Virus record (IMG/VR): IMGVR_UViG_3300015371_000057 | Coordinates: 1-50,186 of that record | DNA: 50,186 bases | Strand: one strand, 5' to 3' | DNA from: a virus | In this document: piece after piece, positions 7,670 through 27,074 of the stretch | Layout: every line of letters begins with the position of its first letter | How positions within the stretch are numbered: the first letter of the stretch is position 1 | Translations under genes and position numbers: made by a program | Notes under the pieces: model-generated | Told to the model about the DNA's origin: nothing | Seen by the model: the letters and a program-made list of their open reading frames with translations, nothing else | The model's database searches: none

Positions 7670-7927
7670 ATGACAGTCAACGGGCACGTCCCGCCTCCGC
7701 GCACACTCGCGGAGCGGGAGCTAGAGAAGGTGCAGCGCACCATCACCCAGGGCCAGCTCGCTGAGCGGCGCCGCAAGGAGCTGGTCGTGTTCCTCCACCG
7801 CGACCAGCACATGAGCCAGGTGGAGATCGCCGCGCGCCTCACGCGTGCGTCAGTCGCAGTCGGCGGCCAGCCGGTCGGTGATGATGCGGTGTTCAAGATC
7901 GTCAAGGCAGGAAGGACCATGCGATGA
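7670..7927 (+). CDS. Small helix-turn-helix protein
   Basis: 85 residues, ATG with AGAGGGAGAAC upstream. 'ELVVFLHRDQHMSQVEIAAR' and 'LTRASVAVGGQPVGDDAVFK' fit helix-turn-helix: the DNA-binding part would be 'SQVEIAARL'-turn-'GDDAVFKIV'. It directly precedes and overlaps the ParB-like gene (ATGCGATGA region), suggesting a shared task. Confidence 0.6.
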   Translation: MTVNGHVPPPRTLAERELEKVQRTITQGQLAERRRKELVVFLHRDQHMSQVEIAARLTRASVAVGGQPVGDDAVFKIVKAGRTMR

Positions 7928-8598
7928 ACTCACTGACCCAGGAGTTCGACCCGGCAATCGAGATCGATCTGATCCACGAGCATCCGGACAACCCTCGCCG
8001 CGGCGACGACAAGGCGGTGGGTGAGTCGATCGCCCGCAACGGGTTCTTCGGCGCCGTCCTCGTCCAGCGCAGCACCCACCACATCATCGCCGGGAACACG
8101 CGCTTCCGGGTGATGGCCGAGGAGGGCCAGGCGACCATCCCCGGCTTCTGGGTGGACTGCGACGACGAGACGGCGACGCGCATCCTGCTGGCCGACAACC
8201 GCACCAGCGACCTCGCCTTCTACGACGACGAGCAGTTGTTCACGCTGCTGAAGGGGCTCGTCGAGAGCGAGGGCCTGGACGGCACGGGCTACGACCGCGC
8301 TGCGTACGAACTGCTGCTCCAGAGCGTCGAGTCCGACGCCATCGTCGGCGGCATCCGCCAGGGCATCGTCCCCGAGGAGCGCATCGACGCCTACAACGAG
8401 CTCGACATCCGCTCACTGATCTTGCCCTACGACTTCAGCAGGTACGAGCCCGTGGCGAACGGGCTGGCACAGTTGCGGTCGTACTGGGGCCTCGACAGCA
8501 ACGCTGACGTGGTCGAACGCCTCGTGTTCGAGGCACTGGAGGACATGGGTGCAACGGGAGCAGGCTTCGATCCCACGGCTGACGCTGCCACGGGGTGA
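7924..8598 (+). CDS. ParB-like nuclease-domain protein
   Basis: 224 residues. The N-terminal ParB/Srx-like domain covers about residues 12-95: 'HEHPDNPRRGDD', then 'GESIARNGFFGAVLVQ', then HHIIAGNTRF and 'ADNRTSDLAFYDD'. The GNTRF box corresponds to the phosphate-binding G-x-x-R segment. No typical C-terminal helix-turn-helix is obvious. In phages such proteins often sit beside DNA methyltransferases or modification enzymes; here the next two genes are a dioxygenase and a kinase of DNA-modification type. Confidence 0.8.
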   Translation: MNSLTQEFDPAIEIDLIHEHPDNPRRGDDKAVGESIARNGFFGAVLVQRSTHHIIAGNTRFRVMAEEGQATIPGFWVDCDDETATRILLADNRTSDLAFYDDEQLFTLLKGLVESEGLDGTGYDRAAYELLLQSVESDAIVGGIRQGIVPEERIDAYNELDIRSLILPYDFSRYEPVANGLAQLRSYWGLDSNADVVERLVFEALEDMGATGAGFDPTADAATG

Positions 8599-9556
8599 TG
8601 CACTCGTCCCGTGCGCCTACGCCGAGGGCATGAAGGACCGCTGGAACCGACGCATCCAGAGCTGCGGGGCGCTCGTGCCGTACGCCCCGCAGCACCTGTG
8701 CCCGAACTGTGGACATCGCCTGGTGAAGTCGCACGCTCCGCCGCCCACCGCTAGCTCGCGGGTGATCGACGGCAACGTCGCCATCATCGACGAGCTCACC
8801 GAGCAGGTCGTCGCGGTGCAGATGGTCTGCGCGAGCGACCTCGCCACCGACCTTGCCGCGTCGCTGGGCCAGGTGAAGTGGGACGACCAGGTGTTCGCCA
8901 ACGCCACCACCACCTCGCGACTCAACGGCATGGCCGTGACCCACCGCACGTTCGGCTACCAGCCCCCGGTGCCGATGCGCCGTCGCTACGGGTGCTCCCG
9001 CTCGCAGTTCAACAGCGAGTACCCGAAAGCGATGGAGCAGATCGCGCAGTTCTGCAAGGTGGCCGAGCACGTCTTCCGCACCCACGCTCACGAGGTCCAC
9101 GACCTCACCTGCGGCAAGGTGCGCGACAACATCCCGCCCGCCTGGCTCATCGCGGGCACGCCGTGGTCGAGCGGCATCATCAACCGCACGGTGTCGCTCC
9201 CGTACCATCGCGACCAGGCCAACGTGACCACTTCGTGGAGTGCGATGTTGGTCTGTCGCCGTCAGGTGGAGGGCGGGTTCCTCCATCTGGCGGACTACGA
9301 CACCTACTTCGCCGTCCCCCACGGGAGCATCACGATCTTCGACGGGCAGTCGGTCGTGCACGGGGTCACGCCGATGAAGATGCTCACGCCCGCGGGCTTC
9401 CGCTACTCGCTCGTCACCTACGCCAAGGTCGGCATGCGCAAGTGCTGCCCCGACCCGAGCCAGGAGGCGCGGCGCGCCGCCATCGAGGCCACCGAAGCTG
9501 AGGACCGCCGCGCAGCGGGGTACAAGCCCTTCCGCAAGCCACGTCGCTTCGCCTGA
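8549..9556 (+). CDS. TET/JBP-type 2-oxoglutarate/Fe(II) dioxygenase
   Basis: 335 residues from the GTG at 8549, which has GGAGGA 5-6 nt upstream and overlaps the ParB-like gene by 50 bp. An N-terminal CPNCGHRL zinc knuckle precedes the double-stranded beta-helix core. Visible catalytic points: LPYHRDQAN with the H220-x-D222 iron ligands, the distal His271 in VVHGVTP, and Arg285 in 'GFRYSLVTYA' positioned for 2-oxoglutarate. 'SGIINRTVSLPYHRD' and 'GGFLHLADYD' agree with phage TET-like proteins, which are known to oxidise 5-methylcytosine in DNA. Likely substrate: 5mC made by the methyltransferase at 26391-27074. The kinase gene follows after 14 bp. Confidence 0.8.
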   Translation: MQREQASIPRLTLPRGDALVPCAYAEGMKDRWNRRIQSCGALVPYAPQHLCPNCGHRLVKSHAPPPTASSRVIDGNVAIIDELTEQVVAVQMVCASDLATDLAASLGQVKWDDQVFANATTTSRLNGMAVTHRTFGYQPPVPMRRRYGCSRSQFNSEYPKAMEQIAQFCKVAEHVFRTHAHEVHDLTCGKVRDNIPPAWLIAGTPWSSGIINRTVSLPYHRDQANVTTSWSAMLVCRRQVEGGFLHLADYDTYFAVPHGSITIFDGQSVVHGVTPMKMLTPAGFRYSLVTYAKVGMRKCCPDPSQEARRAAIEATEAEDRRAAGYKPFRKPRRFA

Positions 9557-9570
9557 ACCAGACTCGCGTC

Positions 9571-10182
9571 ATGCGAGTCGTCTACGTGATCGGGCTGCCC
9601 GGCTCCGGCAAGACCACGATGGTCGAGCGTGCCGTCGATCTGCTCGCGGAGCACCCCGTCGTCATCATCGACCGCGGCACCGTGCCCCACGTCCGCCTCG
9701 ACTACTGGCTCTGGCACATCGGACGCCCACGGGCCGACTTCGGCGGCACCGACACGCTCTCCATGAGCATCCAGCCCCGCGCCATCCGCTGGCTGGACGA
9801 GATCCGCCACGAGTGCGACGTGTTGGTCGGTGAGGGCGATCGCCTGGCCAACGCCGCCTTCTTCGCCGCCTGCCCGGAGCTCACCATCGTCCACCTCGAC
9901 GTGCCGCTGGAGCTGGCGCGCTTCCGGGCCAACGTGCGCGCCGACCAGATGAAGCGGCCCCGTCAGAACGAGAGCTGGTGGAAGGGCCGCGCCACCAAGG
10001 TCGCCAACCTCGTCCGCACCCATCGCGTCGAGACGTTCGACGGCACGTTGCCGAGCTACCTGCTCGCTGAGGAGCTGGCCGATGTGCTGGCGGCTGGGAG
10101 CGACTCCAGCCAGGCCGCGAAGTGGCGGTTGTTGAGGGCCGAGGGCCCGCGGCCACCGCGCACCGTCCGCAGCGCCTCCTGA
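9571..10182 (+). CDS. P-loop nucleotide kinase, candidate hydroxymethyl-base DNA kinase
   Basis: 203 residues. Walker A GLPGSGKTT at residues 8-16; a Walker-B-like strand ending 'VLVGEGD' at 84-90; a helical lid with several Arg/Lys ('ARFRANVRADQMKRPRQNES'). This is the size and layout of the P-loop kinases of phage DNA-hypermodification clusters, some of which phosphorylate hydroxymethyl groups on DNA bases. Placement immediately after the TET/JBP-like gene supports that role, but deoxynucleotide or RNA kinases share these motifs. The last 40 residues overlap the leftward phosphatase gene and look compositionally odd. Confidence 0.75.
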   Translation: MRVVYVIGLPGSGKTTMVERAVDLLAEHPVVIIDRGTVPHVRLDYWLWHIGRPRADFGGTDTLSMSIQPRAIRWLDEIRHECDVLVGEGDRLANAAFFAACPELTIVHLDVPLELARFRANVRADQMKRPRQNESWWKGRATKVANLVRTHRVETFDGTLPSYLLAEELADVLAAGSDSSQAAKWRLLRAEGPRPPRTVRSAS

Positions 10183-10532
10183 CCGCTGATCCCGAGCGAG
10201 TAGCACAGGATCAGCCCCGCCAGCAGGCCGCTGCGGTTGCGCCCGCCGTGACACTGCACCAACAGCGGCCCAGCGCCCCACAGACGAGCGCCACGGCGCG
10301 CCAGGAGGTCGTAGCGGGCCAGTCGGGCATCGTCGAGGCGCCCATCGGTCAGCGGCACGTGGAGGTACTCCTGGACGGCTCCCGCGAGCACTGGGTCACG
10401 GCCCCGCCACAGGTTGATGACGCTGCGAACCCCCTCGGTGGTGACCGCCTCGACGCGCGCCGCCTCCGGCACGTCCAGCAGCTGTGGCCCGATCCACAGG
10501 CCCTCGGCGAGGCCGTACATGAGCGTCTTCAC
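10056..10532 (-). CDS. Dual-specificity/tyrosine-phosphatase-like protein
   Basis: 158 residues from the GTG at 10532, which overlaps the upstream stop (GTGA). The active-site loop VQCHGGRNRSG gives C94-x5-R100, and an upstream Asp in 'VPLTDG' (about residue 63) is placed as the general acid. Compact size suits the dual-specificity class. The last 15-20 residues (Ser/Ala-rich) lie over the end of the kinase gene. Possible substrates are phosphoproteins or the phosphorylated product of the convergent kinase; the latter is speculation from position. Confidence 0.8.
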   Translation of the reverse strand: MKTLMYGLAEGLWIGPQLLDVPEAARVEAVTTEGVRSVINLWRGRDPVLAGAVQEYLHVPLTDGRLDDARLARYDLLARRGARLWGAGPLLVQCHGGRNRSGLLAGLILCYSLGISGQEALRTVRGGRGPSALNNRHFAAWLESLPAASTSASSSASR

Positions 10533-11512
10533 CGCAGCACCGGCTGGCGCAGGTCTCGAGTTGCCCCGTAGTCGTAGAGGATGTCGCTCCAGGTGTAGCC
10601 GTGGGTCGCGACGACCGGCCCGAGCTCCTCGCGCGCCCCGGTCCACCCGTTCAGCTCGCCCAGCGACACGTGCGGGAACAGCTCCTGGCGGATCGCCCAT
10701 CCCGGCGCGGCGACCTCGGCCCCCCAGTGCGGCGTGATCTCGGTCAGGTAGCGGTGCTCGCTGTCGATGCTGCGGCCGGGGTACTGGCGCCGCGCCTCCA
10801 TCGACTGGCGGTACTCACACGTCATCACCTGCAACTCGTAGTGACTCAGCTCGACCCCGTACTCCTCGCGCACCATGCGCAGCGTCGTGTTGGCGATCGA
10901 CTCGGTGGCGGCGTTGCCGACGCGGGTGTTGTCACGGGCCAGGGTCTGCGTGTGCTGCGGCCACAGCAGCGTCAGCGTGCGTCGCGGTGACCACGCATCG
11001 CGCGAGCGGATGTCGTAGGAGGCTGTCCCCGCCCCGAAGCGGGAGAACAGCTCCAGCATGCGGATCGCGATGTACCGGCCGACCCCGTACACCTGGAGCA
11101 CATCGGCCCACGCAGCCTCGTAGTTGGCCGGAGACGCCGCCCCCAGCCACCAGTCCCGATCGGGCCAGTCGCGGCTCACCGTGGCGTACGAGCGCAAGTA
11201 GCGGGCCAGCTTCTGCGGCGTGCGCACGGCCCGACGCTCACGGCGGAACGGGATGCCGTCCCAGTGCTTCGTGAGCCAGGCGGTCAAGTCCTCCGTGCTC
11301 ATCGCCCGCACCATGTTCCGGTCGAGCGAGGTCCAGAGGGCCAGCGCGCCGCCAGTGTTGTACACACCGCCGTAGCAGCCGACCCTCCAGACCTGCTCGT
11401 GAACGGGGAGGCCACGACACATCCCCGCCACCATGTGAGCGTGTGGGCTCGGACCACCGACCGCCTTCTCCCAGCGGCAGAACTCAGCGAAGAAGCGCCA
11501 GTGGTCCGTCAC
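10529..11512 (-). CDS. aGPT-Pplase-like DNA base-hypermodification protein
   Basis: 327 residues with a GTG start. It matches, from memory of the family, the alpha-glutamyl/putrescinyl thymine pyrophosphorylase group (clade 3 in particular): an opening 'FFAEFCRWEKAVGGPSPH', a central 'FRRERRAVRTPQKLARYLRS' (about residues 89-108) and a helix-hairpin-helix-like 'VYGVGRYIAIRMLELF' (about 141-156) as in DNA-glycosylase-fold proteins. Known members act in phages with hypermodified thymine, joining amines or amino acids to an activated base on DNA. Here it lies next to a kinase and a TET/JBP-like enzyme, so the base could be cytosine. Family assignment is by pattern only. Confidence 0.6.
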   Translation of the reverse strand: MTDHWRFFAEFCRWEKAVGGPSPHAHMVAGMCRGLPVHEQVWRVGCYGGVYNTGGALALWTSLDRNMVRAMSTEDLTAWLTKHWDGIPFRRERRAVRTPQKLARYLRSYATVSRDWPDRDWWLGAASPANYEAAWADVLQVYGVGRYIAIRMLELFSRFGAGTASYDIRSRDAWSPRRTLTLLWPQHTQTLARDNTRVGNAATESIANTTLRMVREEYGVELSHYELQVMTCEYRQSMEARRQYPGRSIDSEHRYLTEITPHWGAEVAAPGWAIRQELFPHVSLGELNGWTGAREELGPVVATHGYTWSDILYDYGATRDLRQPVLR

Positions 11513-11527
11513 CTCACGGACGGTAGG

Positions 11528-11896
11528 TCAGGCTCGCCTGATCTTGACGACGTTGTCCTCCGACTCCACCAGCGCAGCCGCGTCGCGCTGCATCACCAGC
11601 CGCGCCCACTCCTGGCGCAACTCGGACCCGGTCAGTCGGACTCCGTGGTCGTCCAGGCCCATCTCCTTGTAGCCCTCAGGGTGGTCGTAGTAGCGGGCGA
11701 GCATGTCGCCCGTCACGCGACTGAAGATGTCGTGGCGCTCCGTCCCGCAGGTGTCACAGCGGAACAGCGCCAGCACCCCCATCACGGGCCGCTGCTCGGG
11801 GGAGCTCACGACCAGCTCCCACCGATGGCGCACCGGCCCGCGGCAGGCGATGAAGCGCTCCCGCTGGTCGAGGCTTGGCAGGCGGGGTCTGGCCAT
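11528..11896 (-). CDS. Conserved phage zinc-ribbon protein
   Basis: 122 residues, ATG at 11896 overlapping the preceding stop (ATGA). FRCDTCGTERHDIFSRVTGD with the following 'ARYYDHPEGY' is a conserved actinophage pattern: a C-x2-C ribbon, then an Arg/Tyr-rich strand and a 'YxxPEGY' turn. A second Cys early in the protein ('FIACRGPVRHRW') may complete the metal site. Function unknown. Confidence 0.7.
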   Translation of the reverse strand: MARPRLPSLDQRERFIACRGPVRHRWELVVSSPEQRPVMGVLALFRCDTCGTERHDIFSRVTGDMLARYYDHPEGYKEMGLDDHGVRLTGSELRQEWARLVMQRDAAALVESEDNVVKIRRA

Positions 11897-12189
11897 CAGA
11901 AGTCCCACCGCACGGTGATCTGCGGGAAGAACAGCGCCCACCCTCCGGTGGGCAACTTCTCGAAGCGCACCTCGTCTCCGATGAACGCGGCGGCGATGTC
12001 GATGTCGACGTTCTCGCTCGCCAGCAATCGGCCGAGGTTGAGCGCCGTGCGGACCGGGTTGCCGGTCATGAACCCGAGGCACCTCGTCCCGTCGCCCAGC
12101 GGGTACTCGTAGCGTGGCTCCACCACTCCCTCCAGATGCATCAGCTCCGTTACCAGCGCGTCAGCGTCCTTGTAGTGGATCGTTGTCAT
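11896..12189 (-). CDS. Small hypothetical protein
   Basis: 97 residues from the ATG at 12189; the GAAAGGAAG site lies about 12 nt upstream and forms part of a longer in-frame extension that I reject. It starts MTTIHYKDADALVTELMHL and ends in hydrophobic strands ('GGWALFFPQITVRWDF'). The mixed alpha/beta pattern suggests a compact domain; no family is recognised. Confidence 0.6.
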   Translation of the reverse strand: MTTIHYKDADALVTELMHLEGVVEPRYEYPLGDGTRCLGFMTGNPVRTALNLGRLLASENVDIDIAAAFIGDEVRFEKLPTGGWALFFPQITVRWDF

Positions 12190-14661: not shown

Positions 14662-15402
14662 CTAGTACGCCCACTTGCCGGAGCGGACACGGCGGCGCAT
14701 GGCGATGCGCTCGTTCTGCCCCCACGCTGCGAACCAGCCGAGGCGGGTGCGGAAGCGCGAGCGCAGCCGGGTCACCTCGGGCATGTCGTCGTCGTTGATC
14801 GTGGGCCAGATGTCGAACCAGCCCACGTCCCAGTACGAGTGCTTCGGCGGGCGCCAGTCGTGGATGTCGGCTTGGTGGATCCACAGCTTCACGCCGAGGC
14901 GCTGTGCCTTGTCGTGGTAGTGCTGGCCGACCGCCTTGATGATCCGCGGCTCCCGCTCGACCACCTCCACGAAGCTCAGGCGACGCTCCAGGGCACGGTT
15001 CAGCACCATCCCCAGCCCGAGCCCGACGATCAGCGCCGAGCCCCCTGGGATGTCAGCGAAGGCTGCATCCACCTCGCGGTGGTCACGCACCTCGGCGGGC
15101 GTGTCGGTCATCCACAGCACCCCGTCCACGGTCAGGCGGGTGTAGATGCCGGGATCGGTGGAGCGGTCGTCGCGCTGCGGGTTGAACGCAGCGCGCAGCT
15201 TCTCGACCATCGCCTCCCGCTCAGTGATCTCGAAGCGCTCGATGAGCACCCCGTCGTCGTTGTACGGCGGCACGTCCACGAGCCACTCTCTGGTCGTCGG
15301 GTCCAGGCCCATCGACCTCGCCCGCTGCATCGCCTCCTCCGTCTCCTGCTGGAGCTGCTCAAGGCGATCGCGCGGGATGGCGAACGGCTCCTTGTCACTC
15401 AT
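14662..15402 (-). CDS. Rossmann-fold SAM-dependent methyltransferase-like protein
   Basis: 246 residues from the ATG at 15402 (ATGA overlap). The N-terminal third is helical; then the class I methyltransferase core: 'ALIVGLGLGMVL' (motif I, residues 123-134), an acidic end of strand 2 in 'VVEREP' (147-152), 'HQADIHDW' (177-184) and 'YWDVGWFDIWP' (190-200). It resembles spermidine-synthase-type Rossmann proteins as well as small-molecule methyltransferases. DNA-methylase motifs such as DPPY or PCQ are absent, so DNA is not the obvious substrate. It might make or modify a donor used on hypermodified bases. Confidence 0.65.
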   Translation of the reverse strand: MSDKEPFAIPRDRLEQLQQETEEAMQRARSMGLDPTTREWLVDVPPYNDDGVLIERFEITEREAMVEKLRAAFNPQRDDRSTDPGIYTRLTVDGVLWMTDTPAEVRDHREVDAAFADIPGGSALIVGLGLGMVLNRALERRLSFVEVVEREPRIIKAVGQHYHDKAQRLGVKLWIHQADIHDWRPPKHSYWDVGWFDIWPTINDDDMPEVTRLRSRFRTRLGWFAAWGQNERIAMRRRVRSGKWAY

Positions 15403-15509
15403 GCCGCGACCCCCACGATGATCAGGGTGGTGGTGCCGATTGCCCACACCACGGTCATCAGCAGGAGCGCGCGGCTCCATCCGAACGGGCGCCAGTGGCG
15501 CAACTTCAT
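15399..15509 (-). CDS. 36-residue membrane protein
   Basis: ATG at 15509 with GAAAGGAACTGACG upstream; the stop overlaps the next start (ATGA). A basic N-terminus (MKLRHWRPFGWSR) precedes a single transmembrane helix 'ALLLMTVVWAIGTTTLIIVG'. Ribosome-binding site, coupling and the clear helix support a real small protein. Function unknown. Confidence 0.65.
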   Translation of the reverse strand: MKLRHWRPFGWSRALLLMTVVWAIGTTTLIIVGVAA

Positions 15510-15511
15510 CG

Positions 15512-15739
15512 TCAGTTCCTTTCGTCAGCATCAACTTCGGCGACCCGGCTCACGTGCAGCGTGAACTCGGTGCCGTTGGCGTTCTGGAGGCGGGCATACC
15601 GCCCACGCCGATTGCGTGGGCGGCCAGGCCCCGGCCACCCGATCAGCCTCACCACGCGCCCGTCATCGAGGCGCACGAGCCCCCGATCGACGGCCACCTT
15701 GATCATCCCTGGGTCGTCGTAGACCGGCACCCACCTCAT
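15512..15739 (-). CDS. Small basic beta-rich protein
   Basis: 75 residues from the ATG at 15739, overlapping the preceding stop. Strands 'VPVYDDPGMIKVAV' and 'GLVRLDDGRVVRLIGWPG', a basic loop 'GRPRNRRGRYARL', and an acidic end. It might be an SH3- or OB-like small domain. No family recognised. Confidence 0.55.
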   Translation of the reverse strand: MRWVPVYDDPGMIKVAVDRGLVRLDDGRVVRLIGWPGPGRPRNRRGRYARLQNANGTEFTLHVSRVAEVDADERN

Positions 15740-18126: not shown

Positions 18127-18887
18127 TAGGGCTCGCCCCAGGGATCCTGATGCGGGGTGGCGTAGCGGTCCCACCACGACGCGTAGATGGCGTGCCACGC
18201 CTCCTGCGCTGTCATACGGCCGCGGCCGTATGACAGGCCCGACCCCAACGTGCGAGCAGCGCCCGTCAGCAGCTCGCTCACCTCGTCGGTGCCCATCCCT
18301 GCCTCGACCAGTGCCGCCACCACGGCGGCGTCGTTGTTGGGGTCGACCGCAGGCTGCATCCGCAGCACCACGTCCACGATGCGGTCGTCGTGCTCGCGGG
18401 CCTGGCGCGCCAGCTCGGCCGCGTTGCGTCGGAGTTGCTCGACTGCGGCCTCGGTGTTGCGGGGGACCTGGACCGGGCGCAGGTCCGAGCGGTCCTGCTT
18501 GGCCGGAGGCTCCTTGCAGAACTCGCGCAGGCGCTCCCGGCTCGGCATCACGTCCATCTCGGCGCACGCCCCGAGGAACGCCGCCATCAGCGTCACCCGT
18601 TCCGAGTTCCCGACCATGCTCCGATGCAGCACCCACGATGCGTCGGCTCGCCGGATGTCCGGTGGCCACGCCCAAGCGACCGAGCGGTACTCGGCCAGGC
18701 GCTTCGGGGCGATGCCGATGGCGTCGGCGAAGGCGTCGAGGTCCTCGCGCGCCGGGTCGTGAGCTCCGCGCCGGGATGGCTGGCCGAAGATGCCCACGGC
18801 CATGTCACCCAGCGCCCACTGCACCCCGTCGAGCTGGCCCAGGAGCAGGCGACCCTCGGCCACCTGCTCCTCGGTGTAGGCGCTCAC
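18126..18887 (-). CDS. Putative DNA-binding protein
   Basis: 253 residues from the GTG at 18887 (GTGA overlap). The pattern 'GIAPKRLAEYRSVAWAWPPD' followed by 'ASWVLHRSMVGNSERVTLM' resembles helix-turn-helix proteins of phages and actinobacterial plasmids, where 'YRxVAxAWP' marks the recognition helix. A helical middle and an Ala-rich C-terminus follow. The coding region contains a perfect 28-bp palindrome at 18209-18236. Its stop supplies the first base of tRNA-like element A. Specific role unknown. Confidence 0.65.
   Translation of the reverse strand: MSAYTEEQVAEGRLLLGQLDGVQWALGDMAVGIFGQPSRRGAHDPAREDLDAFADAIGIAPKRLAEYRSVAWAWPPDIRRADASWVLHRSMVGNSERVTLMAAFLGACAEMDVMPSRERLREFCKEPPAKQDRSDLRPVQVPRNTEAAVEQLRRNAAELARQAREHDDRIVDVVLRMQPAVDPNNDAAVVAALVEAGMGTDEVSELLTGAARTLGSGLSYGRGRMTAQEAWHAIYASWWDRYATPHQDPWGEP
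18209..18236. promoter_or_regulatory. 28-bp perfect palindrome inside a coding region
   Basis: The sequence equals its reverse complement over 28 bp: arm CTGTCATACGGCCG and its complement with no spacer. It lies at about codons 217-226 of the 18126-18887 gene. Core half-sites TACGG and CCGTA, separated by 6 bp, also occur in the 2886-2907 and 21765-21774 palindromes. In RNA it could form a 12-bp hairpin. Confidence 0.65.
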
Positions 18888-20272: not shown

Positions 20273-20580
20273 GGCGCACCCCACTCGGCGCACATCGTGG
20301 CCAGCGCCACCAACGGGCACTCGGTCATGACCCAGCGGAAGGTGGCCAGGTCCCGCTCGTGGTCGGCATAGCCGAACTCCTCCGGGTCCAGGGACTGGCG
20401 CGGTGCGCCTCCCGTGACCACGTCCCAGTAGCGGTCCTCCATGGCCGTGCGGCCCTTGGTGACCCACTGGTTGGCGACCACCCGGTCGCCCTCGTACAGG
20501 CCCCACAGGCCCGCACACCCGTCCACGAAGCGCACGCTCTGGCGGTCGTCGGTGATCGTGAGCTCGATCCTCATGCTCAT
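20269..20580 (-). CDS. Hypothetical protein
   Basis: 103 residues, ATG at 20580 with GAAAGGAACCGAGC upstream (an ATG two codons on is the alternative). The sequence alternates strands and Trp-containing turns ('MRIELTITDDRQSVRFVDG', 'LWGLYEGDRVVANQWVTK'), ending in 'LATFRWVMTECPLVAL'. Looks like a compact beta-rich domain. Function unknown. Confidence 0.6.
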   Translation of the reverse strand: MSMRIELTITDDRQSVRFVDGCAGLWGLYEGDRVVANQWVTKGRTAMEDRYWDVVTGGAPRQSLDPEEFGYADHERDLATFRWVMTECPLVALATMCAEWGAP

Positions 20581-20623
20581 GCTCGGTTCCTTTCATCCGA
20601 ACCCTCGCCCCTGCGGCGAGGAG

Positions 20624-20668
20624 TGGGCGCTGGGGCCTCGAACCCCAGTGGCTGCCGGTCGCCCGCCC
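20624..20668 (-). ncRNA. tRNA-like element C: acceptor/T-arm remnant
   Basis: A T-arm CUGGGG-UUCGAGG-CCCCAG (6-bp stem) is followed by CGCCCA, which can pair with GGGCG upstream, leaving about 11-15 nt where the D and anticodon arms would be. It lies 3 nt after the stop of the lipoprotein gene, just as elements A and B follow stops. A second hairpin CCTCGCC/GGCGAGG lies beyond it, before the next ribosome-binding site. Confidence 0.35.
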
Positions 20669-20670
20669 GC

Positions 20671-20949
20671 TCAGTCGGTCACGCAGACCCACCGTTCGCT
20701 GGCGTCATCCACCAGCGAGCCGCCCCGCCAGTCGCAGTCGTCCCCGGCCTCGTCCTCCTGGACGCTGCCTGGGTAGTGCCACACGGTGGCCGGGTACTGG
20801 CCCTCGCCGCCTGCGTCGTACGTGCTCGTCACGCCCGCCAGCGGCAGGCTGACGCCCGTCTCCGCACCGACCGGCCCGGAGCTCGCACCGTGCGGCGCCA
20901 CGCCGCATCCCGCCAGGGCCAGCAGCCCCACGCTCATCATCCGCTTCAT
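20671..20949 (-). CDS. Small lipoprotein
   Basis: 92 residues from the ATG at 20949, with GAAAGGAACTCAGGAAC upstream. MKRMMSVGLLALAGCG is a short signal peptide with the lipobox L-A-G-C, so the mature protein should be lipidated at Cys15 and sit on the outer face of the membrane. The mature part has two Cys ('DDCDWRGG', 'WVCVTD') that may form a disulfide. Phage lipoproteins sometimes block superinfection, but nothing here proves that role. Confidence 0.75.
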   Translation of the reverse strand: MKRMMSVGLLALAGCGVAPHGASSGPVGAETGVSLPLAGVTSTYDAGGEGQYPATVWHYPGSVQEDEAGDDCDWRGGSLVDDASERWVCVTD

Positions 20950-21035
20950 GTTCCTGAGTTCCTTTCAACTCGTTGACCCGATGCATTGGGCACCGGACCA
21001 CGACCACCCACCGAAGCGGGGAGCCGTGGACCGAT

Positions 21036-21055
21036 GCCAGGCCCGAAGGCCCGGC
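21036..21055 (-). terminator. UUCG tetraloop hairpin after the 21067-21522 gene
   Basis: On the minus strand GCCGGGCC-TTCG-GGCCTGGC: an 8-bp stem (one G-T pair) capped by a stable UUCG loop, 11 nt past the stop. Possible terminator or 3'-end stabiliser. The surrounding 20950-21066 gap shows nothing else. Confidence 0.55.
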
Positions 21056-23153: not shown

Positions 23154-24562
23154 GCAACGTCGACCCCAACGCCTGGCGCAACTGGAGCCCGGCCGCTCAA
23201 CAACAAGCGCTGGAGAAGCTGAAGGCCCGCCAGGTCGAGACGTGGCGCCCCTTCTACTGCCCGGTCCCCGGCTGCAACGGCAAGCCCCACGGCGAGTGGG
23301 AGTGGAACCATGCGCGGGCCGATCAACACCCGCCCACCGACAACGAGTGGCTGTGTTGGTTCCTGCTCTCGGGGCGTGGCTCGGGCAAGACGCGCACGGG
23401 GTCGGAGTACACCCACCGGATGACCGAGTTCACCGGGCGGATGGCCTTCGTCGGGGCGACCGGCCCCGACGCGCGAGACATCATGATCGAGGGCGAGTCA
23501 GGCCTCCTGACGATCGCGCCACCCGGAGCCCGGCCCCACTTCGAGCCCTCCAAGCGACGGCTCACGTGGCCCAACGGGTGCATCGGCACCGTCTTCTCGG
23601 CCGAGGAGCCCGATCGCTTGCGCGGCCCGGAGCACGGCTACGCCTGGGTCGACGAACCGGCCCACTTCGCCCTCATCGGGGAGGTCTGGGACAACCTCAT
23701 GTTCGGCTTGCGGATCGGGCGGCGACCGCGGGTCGTGTGCACGACGACCCCCAAGCCCCGCCCGTGGGTCAAGGAGCTGCTCAAGGAGCCGAGCACGCGA
23801 GTCGCCAGGGCCAGTACCTACGACAACCTCGACAACCTTGCCCCGGCCTTCGCCGAGCGAGTGCTCAGGCGGTACCAGGGAACCCGACTGGGGAGACAGG
23901 AGCTCTACGGCGAGGTCCTGGAAGACGTCGAGGGGGCGTTGTGGACGTGGGAGATGATCGAGCCCGACCGACTGGCGCGGGCGCCCGAGTCGATGACCCG
24001 GATCGTCGTCGCCGTCGACCCGGCCGGAGGCGCCAAGGCCCGCAACGACGAGACCGGCATCGTCGTCATCGGGAGCCTCGATGACCACCTCTACGTCCTG
24101 GCCGATCGCTCGGGGCGCTTCTCGCCGTACGGGTGGGCGATGGCGGTCGACGCCGCGTACGAGGAGTTCTCGGCCGACGCGGTGATTGCGGAGACGAACT
24201 ACGGCGGCGACATGGTGATGAGCAACTTGCGCGCCGCGGGCGTCAACAAGCGCGTCATCGGCGTCCATAGCCGCAAGGGCAAGGCGATCCGCGCCGAGCC
24301 GATCGTCGGCGTCTACGAGCAACACCGCGCCCACCACGTCGGCACCTTCCCCGAGTTGGAGGAGGAGCTCACCACGTGGCAGCCCTACGAGGACAAGGAC
24401 TCGCCCAACCGCCTCGACGCGCTGGTCCACGGGGCCGTCGCCGTTCTCGGGCGCAAGCAGATGGCCGACATCGCCTCCCCGAGCTCCTTGCGCCGCAACG
24501 CCGAGTCCCGCGAGGCCGAGTCGATCGCCCGCGCCCGCCGCCATCTAGGAGTGCCCCGATGA
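23150..24562 (+). CDS. Terminase large subunit
   Basis: 470 residues. ATPase: Walker A SGRGSGKT (74-81), Walker B 'YAWVDEP' (164-170), a coupling 'TTTPKPRPWV' segment. Nuclease: 'VVAVDPAGGAKARNDETGIV' (first Asp), 'AVIAETNYGGDMV', and 'SPNRLDALVHG' (last Asp). ATP-driven DNA packaging into the prohead and headful or cos cleavage. Unusual: residues 37-54 hold C-x4-C-x4-H-x6-H (CPVPGC...H...H), a likely zinc-binding insertion just ahead of the ATPase. Starts on an ATGA overlap. Confidence 0.95.
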   Translation: MSNVDPNAWRNWSPAAQQQALEKLKARQVETWRPFYCPVPGCNGKPHGEWEWNHARADQHPPTDNEWLCWFLLSGRGSGKTRTGSEYTHRMTEFTGRMAFVGATGPDARDIMIEGESGLLTIAPPGARPHFEPSKRRLTWPNGCIGTVFSAEEPDRLRGPEHGYAWVDEPAHFALIGEVWDNLMFGLRIGRRPRVVCTTTPKPRPWVKELLKEPSTRVARASTYDNLDNLAPAFAERVLRRYQGTRLGRQELYGEVLEDVEGALWTWEMIEPDRLARAPESMTRIVVAVDPAGGAKARNDETGIVVIGSLDDHLYVLADRSGRFSPYGWAMAVDAAYEEFSADAVIAETNYGGDMVMSNLRAAGVNKRVIGVHSRKGKAIRAEPIVGVYEQHRAHHVGTFPELEEELTTWQPYEDKDSPNRLDALVHGAVAVLGRKQMADIASPSSLRRNAESREAESIARARRHLGVPR

Positions 24563-25497
24563 GGATCTGCGTCTACGCCATCATGCGCGACGAGTCGGTC
24601 AACGTGATGCCGTGGTTGGAGTCGGCCAACGACGCCAACGACTTGTTCGTGCTCGACACCGGCTCCGTCGACGGGACGCCCGAGCAACTCAGCGCGGGCG
24701 GGGCTCACGTGCGCGAGGCCGTCTTCGACCCGTTCCGCTTCGACGACGCCCGCAACGCGGCGTTGGCGCTGGCGCCCCCGGCCGACTTGTACTTCCGCCT
24801 CGACGCCGACGAGCGGCTGCCCCCTGACTGGCGCGAGCAGATCGAGGACAACTACGACGAGCGGGTCCCGCGCTACCGCTACCGCGTCCGCAACACCGAC
24901 GGCATCTGGGGCACGATCACCCGCGACGACCTCCACCGTCGCGGTGGCTTCCGCTGGAAGTACCCGACCCACGAAGTGCTCGTCGGGCCGCTCGTGGCGA
25001 TGGACCTGCCGCGCCTCGTCGTGACCCACTCCCACCAAGGCCGTCGACCCCACCACGAGTCCAACCTGGCGACGCTCGCCAACGCCGTCGAGGAGTACCC
25101 CGGCGACGCCCGGATGCGCTTCTACCTCGCCCGCGAGTTCTGGTACGCGGGCCAGTGGGCCGACTGTCGGTTGGCGATGATGAACTTCTTGGACCTGCCC
25201 AACGGGTGGGGCGCGGAGCGGGCCGAGGCCTACCGCATCCTGGCGGCGATCGACGACTACCCCGAGCGGTGGTTGTGGAAGGCGGTCGGTGAGTGTCCGG
25301 AGCGGCGCGAGCCGTGGGTCGACCTGGCCCGGTTGTACCTGCTCGGGGGCGAGCCCGAGCGGGCGCTGACGATGGCCAAGGAGGCCGACCGGCGCGAGGA
25401 CGAGTCGCTCTACACGACCGACCCGCGCGCTTGGGGCGATGGGTTCGACGAGTTGGCCGACGAGATCGACCACGCCCTCGCCGAGTCCCTGCGGTGA
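24559..25497 (+). CDS. Family 2 glycosyltransferase with helical C-terminal repeats
   Basis: 312 residues, ATGA overlap with the terminase. GT-A fold: 'DTGSVDGT' (33-40, nucleotide-sugar site), 'RFDDARNAAL', and the metal-binding 'RLDADERLP' (80-88). The second half ('DARMRFYLAREFWYAGQWAD', 'EAYRILAAIDDYPERW', 'PWVDLARLYLLGGEPERALT') looks like TPR-type helices. Enzymes like this in actinophages lie near head genes; the acceptor may be a virion protein or, given the TET-like gene in the same genome, a hydroxylated DNA base. Which is unknown. Confidence 0.85.
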   Translation: MRICVYAIMRDESVNVMPWLESANDANDLFVLDTGSVDGTPEQLSAGGAHVREAVFDPFRFDDARNAALALAPPADLYFRLDADERLPPDWREQIEDNYDERVPRYRYRVRNTDGIWGTITRDDLHRRGGFRWKYPTHEVLVGPLVAMDLPRLVVTHSHQGRRPHHESNLATLANAVEEYPGDARMRFYLAREFWYAGQWADCRLAMMNFLDLPNGWGAERAEAYRILAAIDDYPERWLWKAVGECPERREPWVDLARLYLLGGEPERALTMAKEADRREDESLYTTDPRAWGDGFDELADEIDHALAESLR

Positions 25498-26050: not shown

Positions 26051-26394
26051 TCGCGGACGCCTCCCCGCTGTCCTTCGACGACCCGTTCGTCCTCGTCTGC
26101 GCGGCGGTCGTGGCCGTCCTGGCGGTGGCCCGGTTCACCCGGCTCATCGTCGACGACGACTACCCGCCGACCCGCTGGCTCACGGAGCGCTTCGTGCGGT
26201 TGGTCCCCGAGAAGTGGGGCGTGCTCGTCGAGTGCTCGTGGTGCACGTCGCCGTACGTCGCGGCGATCATCGTCGGCTGGGCGTGGGCGACCGATCTCCA
26301 CTGGTCGTGGTGGTTCGTCAACTCGATCGCCGCGCTGTCGTGGCTGGCCGGGTTCATGAACGCCCGCGACATCCCCCCCGACCAACGAGGGTGA
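26047..26394 (+). CDS. DUF1360-like membrane protein
   Basis: 115 residues with three hydrophobic segments: 'VLVCAAVVAVLAVARFTRL', 'SPYVAAIIVGWAWATDL' and 'FVNSIAALSWLAGFM'. 'ARFTRLIVDDDYPPTRW' and 'WGVLVECSWCTSPYVAAI' match the membrane protein family DUF1360 found in actinobacteria and their phages, including the C-x2-C pair. Located in the inner membrane; role unknown. Confidence 0.75.
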   Translation: MIADASPLSFDDPFVLVCAAVVAVLAVARFTRLIVDDDYPPTRWLTERFVRLVPEKWGVLVECSWCTSPYVAAIIVGWAWATDLHWSWWFVNSIAALSWLAGFMNARDIPPDQRG

Positions 26395-27074
26395 GTCGCC
26401 CGGTCCTGCTCGACCTGTTCTGCGGCGCGGGCGGCGCAAGTATGGGATACATGCGCGCCGGGTTCCGTGTCATCGGCATCGACCGCACACCCCAGCCGCG
26501 CTACCCCTTCGAGTTCCGCCGCGGCAACGCGCTGTGCCCGCCGATCGGACTGCGCCACGTGGCGGTGATCCACGCCAGTCCTCCGTGCCAGGCGTACTCC
26601 CAGGCCAACAACATCCACGGCAACGTCCACGTCGAGCTGCTCGACGCGACGCGCGAGCTGCTCGTGGGCTCGGGTCTGCCGTACGTGATCGAGAACGTGC
26701 CCGGCGCGCCGCTCGTCGACCCGGTGCTCGTGTGCGGGCGGGCGCTCGGCTGTGGCGTCAAGCGCCACCGTCACTTCGAGAGCAACTTGCCGTTGGTCGG
26801 CACGACGTGTCCTCCCGGCCACCCCGGCCACTGGCTCTCGGTGTACGGCAACTCGGCCATGACCCGCGGCGAGAAGGTCGGCCGCTTGCCGAGCGACCGC
26901 GGCAACAAGATCAGCCGCGCCCACGTCGGCACCGAGGCCGGTCGTCGCGCCATGGGCATCCCGTGGATGACGATCAACGAGCTGTCCCAGGCGATCCCCC
27001 CCGCCTACACCGAGTTCCTCGGGCGCCAGATCGCTACGCTCCTCTCGCCGGAGCCGTCGTCGCGTCATGGGTGA
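26391..27074 (+). CDS. DNA (cytosine-5) methyltransferase
   Basis: 227 residues from the GTG at 26391 (GTGA overlap). Motif I 'LDLFCGAGGASMGYMRAGF' (7-25), motif IV 'ASPPCQAYSQ' with catalytic Cys66, motif VI 'YVIENVPGAP' (98-107), an RHRHF motif VIII-like segment, and a C-terminal 'IPPAYTEFLGRQIA' as motif X. It is short compared with restriction methylases and has a reduced target-recognition region, like other stand-alone phage enzymes. No cognate endonuclease is nearby, so self-protection or provision of 5mC for the TET-like enzyme are the likely roles. Confidence 0.9.
   Translation: MSRPVLLDLFCGAGGASMGYMRAGFRVIGIDRTPQPRYPFEFRRGNALCPPIGLRHVAVIHASPPCQAYSQANNIHGNVHVELLDATRELLVGSGLPYVIENVPGAPLVDPVLVCGRALGCGVKRHRHFESNLPLVGTTCPPGHPGHWLSVYGNSAMTRGEKVGRLPSDRGNKISRAHVGTEAGRRAMGIPWMTINELSQAIPPAYTEFLGRQIATLLSPEPSSRHG

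Follow-up and report, generated by a model that had tools for sequence, protein, structure and literature searches.

Three kinds of described system come closest to the gene cassette studied here, which lies in a 50,186-base virus record of IMG/VR (IMGVR_UViG_3300015371_000057; 69% GC; this whole stretch is called the window) and very probably directs amino-acid hypermodification of a pyrimidine in the phage DNA by a TET dioxygenase, a P-loop kinase and an amino acid:DNA transferase (ADDT). The first is the system of phage M6, which shares with the window the ADDT family (gp51) and a P-loop base kinase of PHROG 800 (gp54). Both M6 and some of the TET cassettes encode an enzyme dependent on pyridoxal phosphate (PLP) between ADDT and the kinase. 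The window differs from M6 in that the hydroxymethyl group would be made by TET on the polymer and not by a thymidylate-synthase-like dUMP hydroxymethylase, in that its kinase belongs to Ploopntkinase3 and not to HMUDK_HMUD1, and in that it carries a C5-cytosine methyltransferase and an extra phosphatase of the dual-specificity (DSP) type, the latter not found near the M6 genes. The hydroxymethylase (PF00303) was absent from genomes G000-G003 and was detected in M6, the positive control.

The second kind is the operon of cultured actinophages (Gordonia phages Wooper and LittleMunchkin, Rhodococcus phage Tonitrus and Mycobacterium phage Prince), in which ParB, TET, ADDT and kinase genes form a single block, as in the window. 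These operons differ in that no DSP is annotated in the block, no C5-methyltransferase is present in the genome, the TET lacks an N-terminal Cys-rich segment, and the ADDT is 21-24% identical to that of the window. The third is TET + TAGT cytosine hypermodification of the type of Burke 2021, in which TET performs the first step, as in the window. At locus L025 (contig G006), a TET 62% identical to that of the window is paired with a TAGT (PF20691), whereas the window, in which no TAGT was found, would use a kinase and ADDT instead of the TAGT sugar transferase. Hydroxymethylpyrimidines made by TET/JBP enzymes are said to have been predicted computationally, by Iyer et al. in 2013, to be starting points for further modification, which already contains this pathway in general terms.

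Conservation of the cassette

A sequence-only reading of the window had proposed that a TET/JBP dioxygenase, a P-loop kinase and an aGPT-Pplase-like protein act in series. All three open reading frames (ORFs) were confirmed (Table 1), and a phosphatase gene that this reading had overlooked was found beside them. The GTG start of the phosphatase overlaps the ADDT stop as GTGA (4 bp), and its 3' end overlaps the 3' end of the kinase gene by 127 bp.

Three IMG/VR contigs (G001, G002 and G003) encode ADDT relatives 67-77% identical to the window copy. All three carry ParB, TET, kinase, phosphatase and ADDT genes together, so that the cassette is present in 4/4 close genomes, and the cassette proteins of the three relatives are approximately 39-84% identical to those of the window with intact motifs. 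The ParB gene precedes TET in all four, as it does in the cultured actinophages. G002 and G003 share the layout of the window; in G001, the five genes lie on a single strand in the order ParB-TET-ADDT-DSP-kinase, and neighbours have short coupled overlaps. Because G001 is rearranged yet has kept all five genes, they are likely to act together.

Assignment of TET, kinase and ADDT

The window TET matched PF12851 with 40.6 bits (gathering cut-off 34.9), and its family profile matched Naegleria TET-like and human TET2 chains (E 3e-4 to 7e-4). The HxD...H iron triad and the 2-oxoglutarate-binding Arg proposed earlier (H220, D222, H271 and R285) were found at those numbers and were invariant in four orthologues. 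An additional Cys-rich segment at the N terminus sets apart the subclade of this protein, and no relative from this subclade was found in hosts or prophages among GTDB genomes. The enzyme would oxidise 5-methylcytosine (5mC) or T in DNA; its sequence does not decide the preferred base. The residue eight positions after R285, which presumably aligns with H1904 of human TET2, was considered as a specificity marker and rejected, as the presence of a methyltransferase does not sort with it.

The kinase matched PF18751 with 64.4 bits (cut-off 27). The Walker A motif reported earlier is present as GLPGSGKTT, and the motif alignment revealed conserved GTD, EGxRLAN and QxxxW motifs. No match to HMUDK_HMUD1 (PF18748), the family matched by M6 gp54, was obtained for the window kinase at E up to 1.

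The product of the third ORF matched PF18724 (36.1 bits, cut-off 26.2), a family named "aGPT-Pplase2" by SEA-PHAGES. Relatives with this label share the Pfam family, but the protein is better described as an ADDT than as a pyrophosphorylase: it did not match aGPT-Pplase proper (Pfam clades 1 and 3), ADDT was the sole family matched, and its cultured homologues reach aGPT-Pplase3 below the cut-off (12.8 vs 25 bits). No similar ADDT was detected in cultured phages by tblastn. Taken together, the profile searches placed the first protein in the TET/JBP family as expected, and placed the other two in Ploopntkinase3 and ADDT instead of HMUDK and aGPT-Pplase proper.

The AlphaFold2 model of ADDT, built from 24 sequences after a four-sequence model (predicted local distance difference test score, pLDDT, 45) was discarded, is all-helical with a pLDDT of 92.1 and a predicted template-modelling score (pTM) of 0.89. 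Its top matches in the PDB were the 5-phosphomethyl-dU glycinyltransferase PUGT (8Z2N/8Z2M; probability 1.00, TM-score 0.52-0.62, Foldseek E 2e-3 to 7e-3); helix-hairpin-helix (HhH) DNA glycosylases came next, with weaker matches. The ADDT family profile matched 25qc, an amino acid:DNA transferase (7e-12), 8z2m (2e-5) and M6 gp51 (PF18724; probability 96.9%, E 1.7e-10). Because ADDT matches PUGT by fold and these three proteins by sequence, the phosphate on a 5-phosphomethyl base is its probable leaving group, which makes "pyrophosphorylase" the wrong name.

Distribution of the TET-kinase-ADDT combination

We surveyed 80 TET loci of IMG/VR, which are the top-scoring ones and not a random sample. 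ADDT and kinase genes were both nearby in 25 loci, the kinase alone in seven, ADDT alone in three and neither in 45. The proposed series of TET, kinase and amino-acid transferase is well supported but is not special to this phage, since it also occurs in the cultured actinophages and in these 25 loci. Other TET cassettes have genes for an FAD oxidase (DAO), a GNAT protein, a PLP enzyme (PALP) or an FkbM methyltransferase between ADDT and the kinase. Flavin, PLP and acetyltransferase enzymes carry out tailoring steps of thymidine hypermodification, and of the contextual evidence, these intervening genes speak most strongly for amino-acid chemistry. No tailoring gene of these classes adjoins ADDT in the window.

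Three loci (L033, L034 and L047) contain a TET-ADDT-FkbM methyltransferase-DSP-kinase cassette, in which the amino-acid adduct may be methylated. In L207 (Stinger) and L210 (Kharcho), TET and kinase genes occur with no annotated ADDT between or beside them, and phosphorylated bases are possibly the end product. Public records label TET as "queuine tRNA-ribosyltransferase", the base kinase as "terminase small subunit" or "adenylate kinase" and ADDT as "DNA glycosylase" (phrog_6059, phrog_800 and Prince gene 3).

Cytosine or thymine as the modified base

The sequence-only reading had also named a C5-cytosine methyltransferase and 5mC as the target. The methyltransferase assignment was borne out: FCGAGG, SPPCQ, ENV and AIPPAY (C-terminal motif X) are intact and are invariant in the orthologues of G002 and G003 (71-73% identical), and the protein matched phrog_363, with a PF00145 score (20.4 bits) slightly under the cut-off of 22. 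In the window and in G009 (11427-12092), the gene is flanked by a small gene and the portal gene; in G002 (57575-58264) and G003 (20368-21045), it lies on the opposite strand, downstream of the head-maturation gene.

We compared 36 long contigs carrying the major head gene of the window. A methyltransferase gene was present in 4/4 contigs with TET and in 4/32 without (one-sided p=0.0012, uncorrected for kinship); when G009, which has the methyltransferase, and G006, which does not, were added, the counts were 5/6 and 4/32 (p=0.0014). Both genes are missing from G043, the nearest relative found by head gene (75%). The more distant relative G062 carries a ParB-TET-ADDT-kinase cassette and a methyltransferase of another subfamily. 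As the methyltransferase tracks TET in this lineage, we lean weakly towards cytosine as the modified base, for the window lineage alone; that the window directs TET-kinase-ADDT hypermodification and that its base is cytosine is, taken together, about as likely as not.

Several observations weigh against cytosine. The methyltransferase gene is 15 kb from the cassette and is placed differently among relatives; of the four head-gene relatives with TET, three are closely related, and the contigs are possibly not complete. No C5-methyltransferase was found in G006, which combines a close TET with a TAGT glycosyltransferase, or in any of the 11 genomes of cultured actinophages that carry TET, the kinase or both (0/11). 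Among TET+ADDT+kinase contigs no shorter than 35 kb, roughly half are without such a gene. Depletion of methyl-cytosine dinucleotides was not seen, and the CpG, GpC and TpA odds show no sign of methylation.

These cultured phages and long contigs favour thymine in their own lineages. With thymine as the base in the window as well, the enzymes and steps would be the same: TET would convert T to 5-hydroxymethyluracil (5hmU), the kinase would form 5-phosphomethyl-dU and ADDT would add the amino acid, with the methyltransferase an unrelated, ordinary phage enzyme. JBP hydroxylates T to 5hmU in DNA, and the solved relatives of ADDT use 5-phosphomethyl-dU. This is a serious possibility, although we hold it at somewhat below an even chance, given the association of the methyltransferase with TET in the head-gene lineage, the lack of both in G043 and the Cys-rich segment of the window subclade, which cultured TETs do not have. 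The phage TETs tested in Burke's 2021 work reportedly act on 5mC. The 5mC target proposed earlier is plausible for the window lineage, and the earlier interpretation is partly supported: it was right in outline, for a combination that is not unusual.

A phosphatase linked to ADDT and the kinase

The phosphatase carries the CX5R signature CHGGRNR, and its candidate general acid, D63, is invariant in four close orthologues. The window copy scored 20.5 bits with PF00782, below the cut-off of 33.5, whereas the copies of G001 (35.6), L047 (40.9) and L222 (52.3) passed. An IMG/VR scan seeded with the four close phosphatases returned the three known cassettes only, and a search with a wider alignment (two distant and two close sequences) returned 23 loci. 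ADDT adjoins the phosphatase in 23/23 of these loci, a count to be read with the seeds drawn from ADDT cassettes and some loci near-duplicates (e.g. L217/L034 and L227/L228). This kind of P-loop kinase was also seen in 15/23. The motif [HQ]CxxGRNR is kept in all 23 relatives, and a DG motif in most. In L222, phosphatase and kinase form one ORF of 355 residues directly after ADDT, with both domains above the Pfam cut-off. In three of the loci (L219, L230 and L233), the fetched stretch encodes an M6-gp58-like hydroxymethylase and contains no TET gene. Because it is found with either a TET or a dUMP-hydroxymethylase start, the phosphatase belongs with the phosphate step of kinase and ADDT, whatever the source of the hydroxymethyl group.

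Given the pathway, we moderately favour dephosphorylation of unused 5-phosphomethyl bases as the role of this enzyme, because it is linked to ADDT and the kinase and is fused to the kinase in one virus. As the main alternative, it may act on proteins and serve as a switch for the kinase or for a host target, with the rest of the pathway unchanged, which would be compatible with either base. Its DSP family membership agrees with this, as do generic phage DSPs encoded away from ADDT; the cultured-phage DSP matched by the window sequence, that of Mycobacterium phage Aziz, adjoins an RNA ligase. We nevertheless consider a signalling role unlikely, since a subfamily found only beside ADDT, and once in one polypeptide with the base kinase, fits a shared substrate better. 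The ADDT-linked phosphatase seems to be a new element that has been described nowhere before; a literature search, with the main papers of the field outside it, found no link between DSP and hypermodification.

Proposed pathway

We infer the reactions and their order from the gene families, active-site motifs, fold and linkage described above. The pathway would be post-replicative. The C5-methyltransferase would make 5mC, which TET would hydroxylate to 5-hydroxymethylcytosine (5hmC). The P-loop kinase would phosphorylate the 5-hydroxymethyl group in DNA, and ADDT would replace the phosphate with an amino acid (glycine for the nearest relative of solved structure), giving a 5-(N-aminoacyl)methyl base. 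A simple adduct is expected, because no tailoring enzyme adjoins the cassette in the window. The DSP-type phosphatase would probably strip the phosphate from those 5-phosphomethyl bases left unconverted by ADDT. The complete scheme, from 5mC through 5hmC and 5-phosphomethyl-C to 5-aminoacylmethyl-C, in which a DNA-base phosphatase dedicated to undoing the kinase reaction makes base phosphorylation reversible, is tentative and, taken as a whole, rather unlikely to be right in every part.

Production of 5hmC only by TET and the methyltransferase, with kinase, phosphatase and ADDT decayed or acting on another substrate, is very improbable: TET can act alone, as 45/80 TET loci with no ADDT, kinase or DSP nearby suggest and as G009, with TET and methyltransferase and none of these genes beside TET, illustrates, but the cassette of the window is contiguous, its proteins are conserved in three relatives with their motifs intact, and its genes are translationally coupled in G001.

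Other features of the window

The positions of the cassette genes and of the methyltransferase gene are summarized in Table 1. A GT2-like gene at 24550-25497 (+), which adjoins the terminase gene and matches phrog_13126 ("beta-1,4-glycosyltransferase", E 1e-61), was considered as a pathway member and rejected, as it is present in G043 and G044, which lack TET. A putative methyltransferase is encoded at 14662-15534 (-) (phrog_15480, E 4e-32) and is kept in G002, G003 and G044. A tRNA-Ala (GGC) was predicted at 18684-18772 (+), at a place where both strands have open frames.

Table 1 Cassette genes and candidate methyltransferase gene of the window.
Feature	Position	Strand	Evidence and remarks
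ParB-like N-terminal domain protein	7924..8598	+	PF02195 4e-6; phrog_723 3e-32; opens the cassette, overlaps the TET start
TET/JBP dioxygenase	8549..9556	+	PF12851 above cut-off; N-terminal Cys-rich zinc-ribbon-like segment
Ploopntkinase3-family P-loop kinase	9571..10182	+	PF18751 1.3e-17; predicted 5-hydroxymethylpyrimidine DNA kinase
DSP/PTP-type phosphatase	10056..10532	-	phrog_10650 1e-7; CHGGRNR active-site signature
ADDT, amino acid:DNA transferase	10529..11512	-	PF18724 7e-9; HhH DNA-glycosylase-like fold; predicted 5-phosphomethylpyrimidine aminoacyl transferase
C5-cytosine DNA methyltransferase	26391..27074	+	phrog_363 6e-34; candidate 5mC source, 15 kb from the cassette

Implications

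To our knowledge, amino-acid decoration of DNA is known only on thymine. If the base is cytosine, such decoration would extend to cytosine and phages would have another route to block restriction enzymes, while enzymologists would gain a route to aminoacyl-cytosine DNA. The widespread mislabelling of TET, kinase and ADDT genes masks how common the pathway is. If the phosphatase is tied to ADDT, phosphorylated bases in phage DNA would be managed and not merely consumed, whatever the base.

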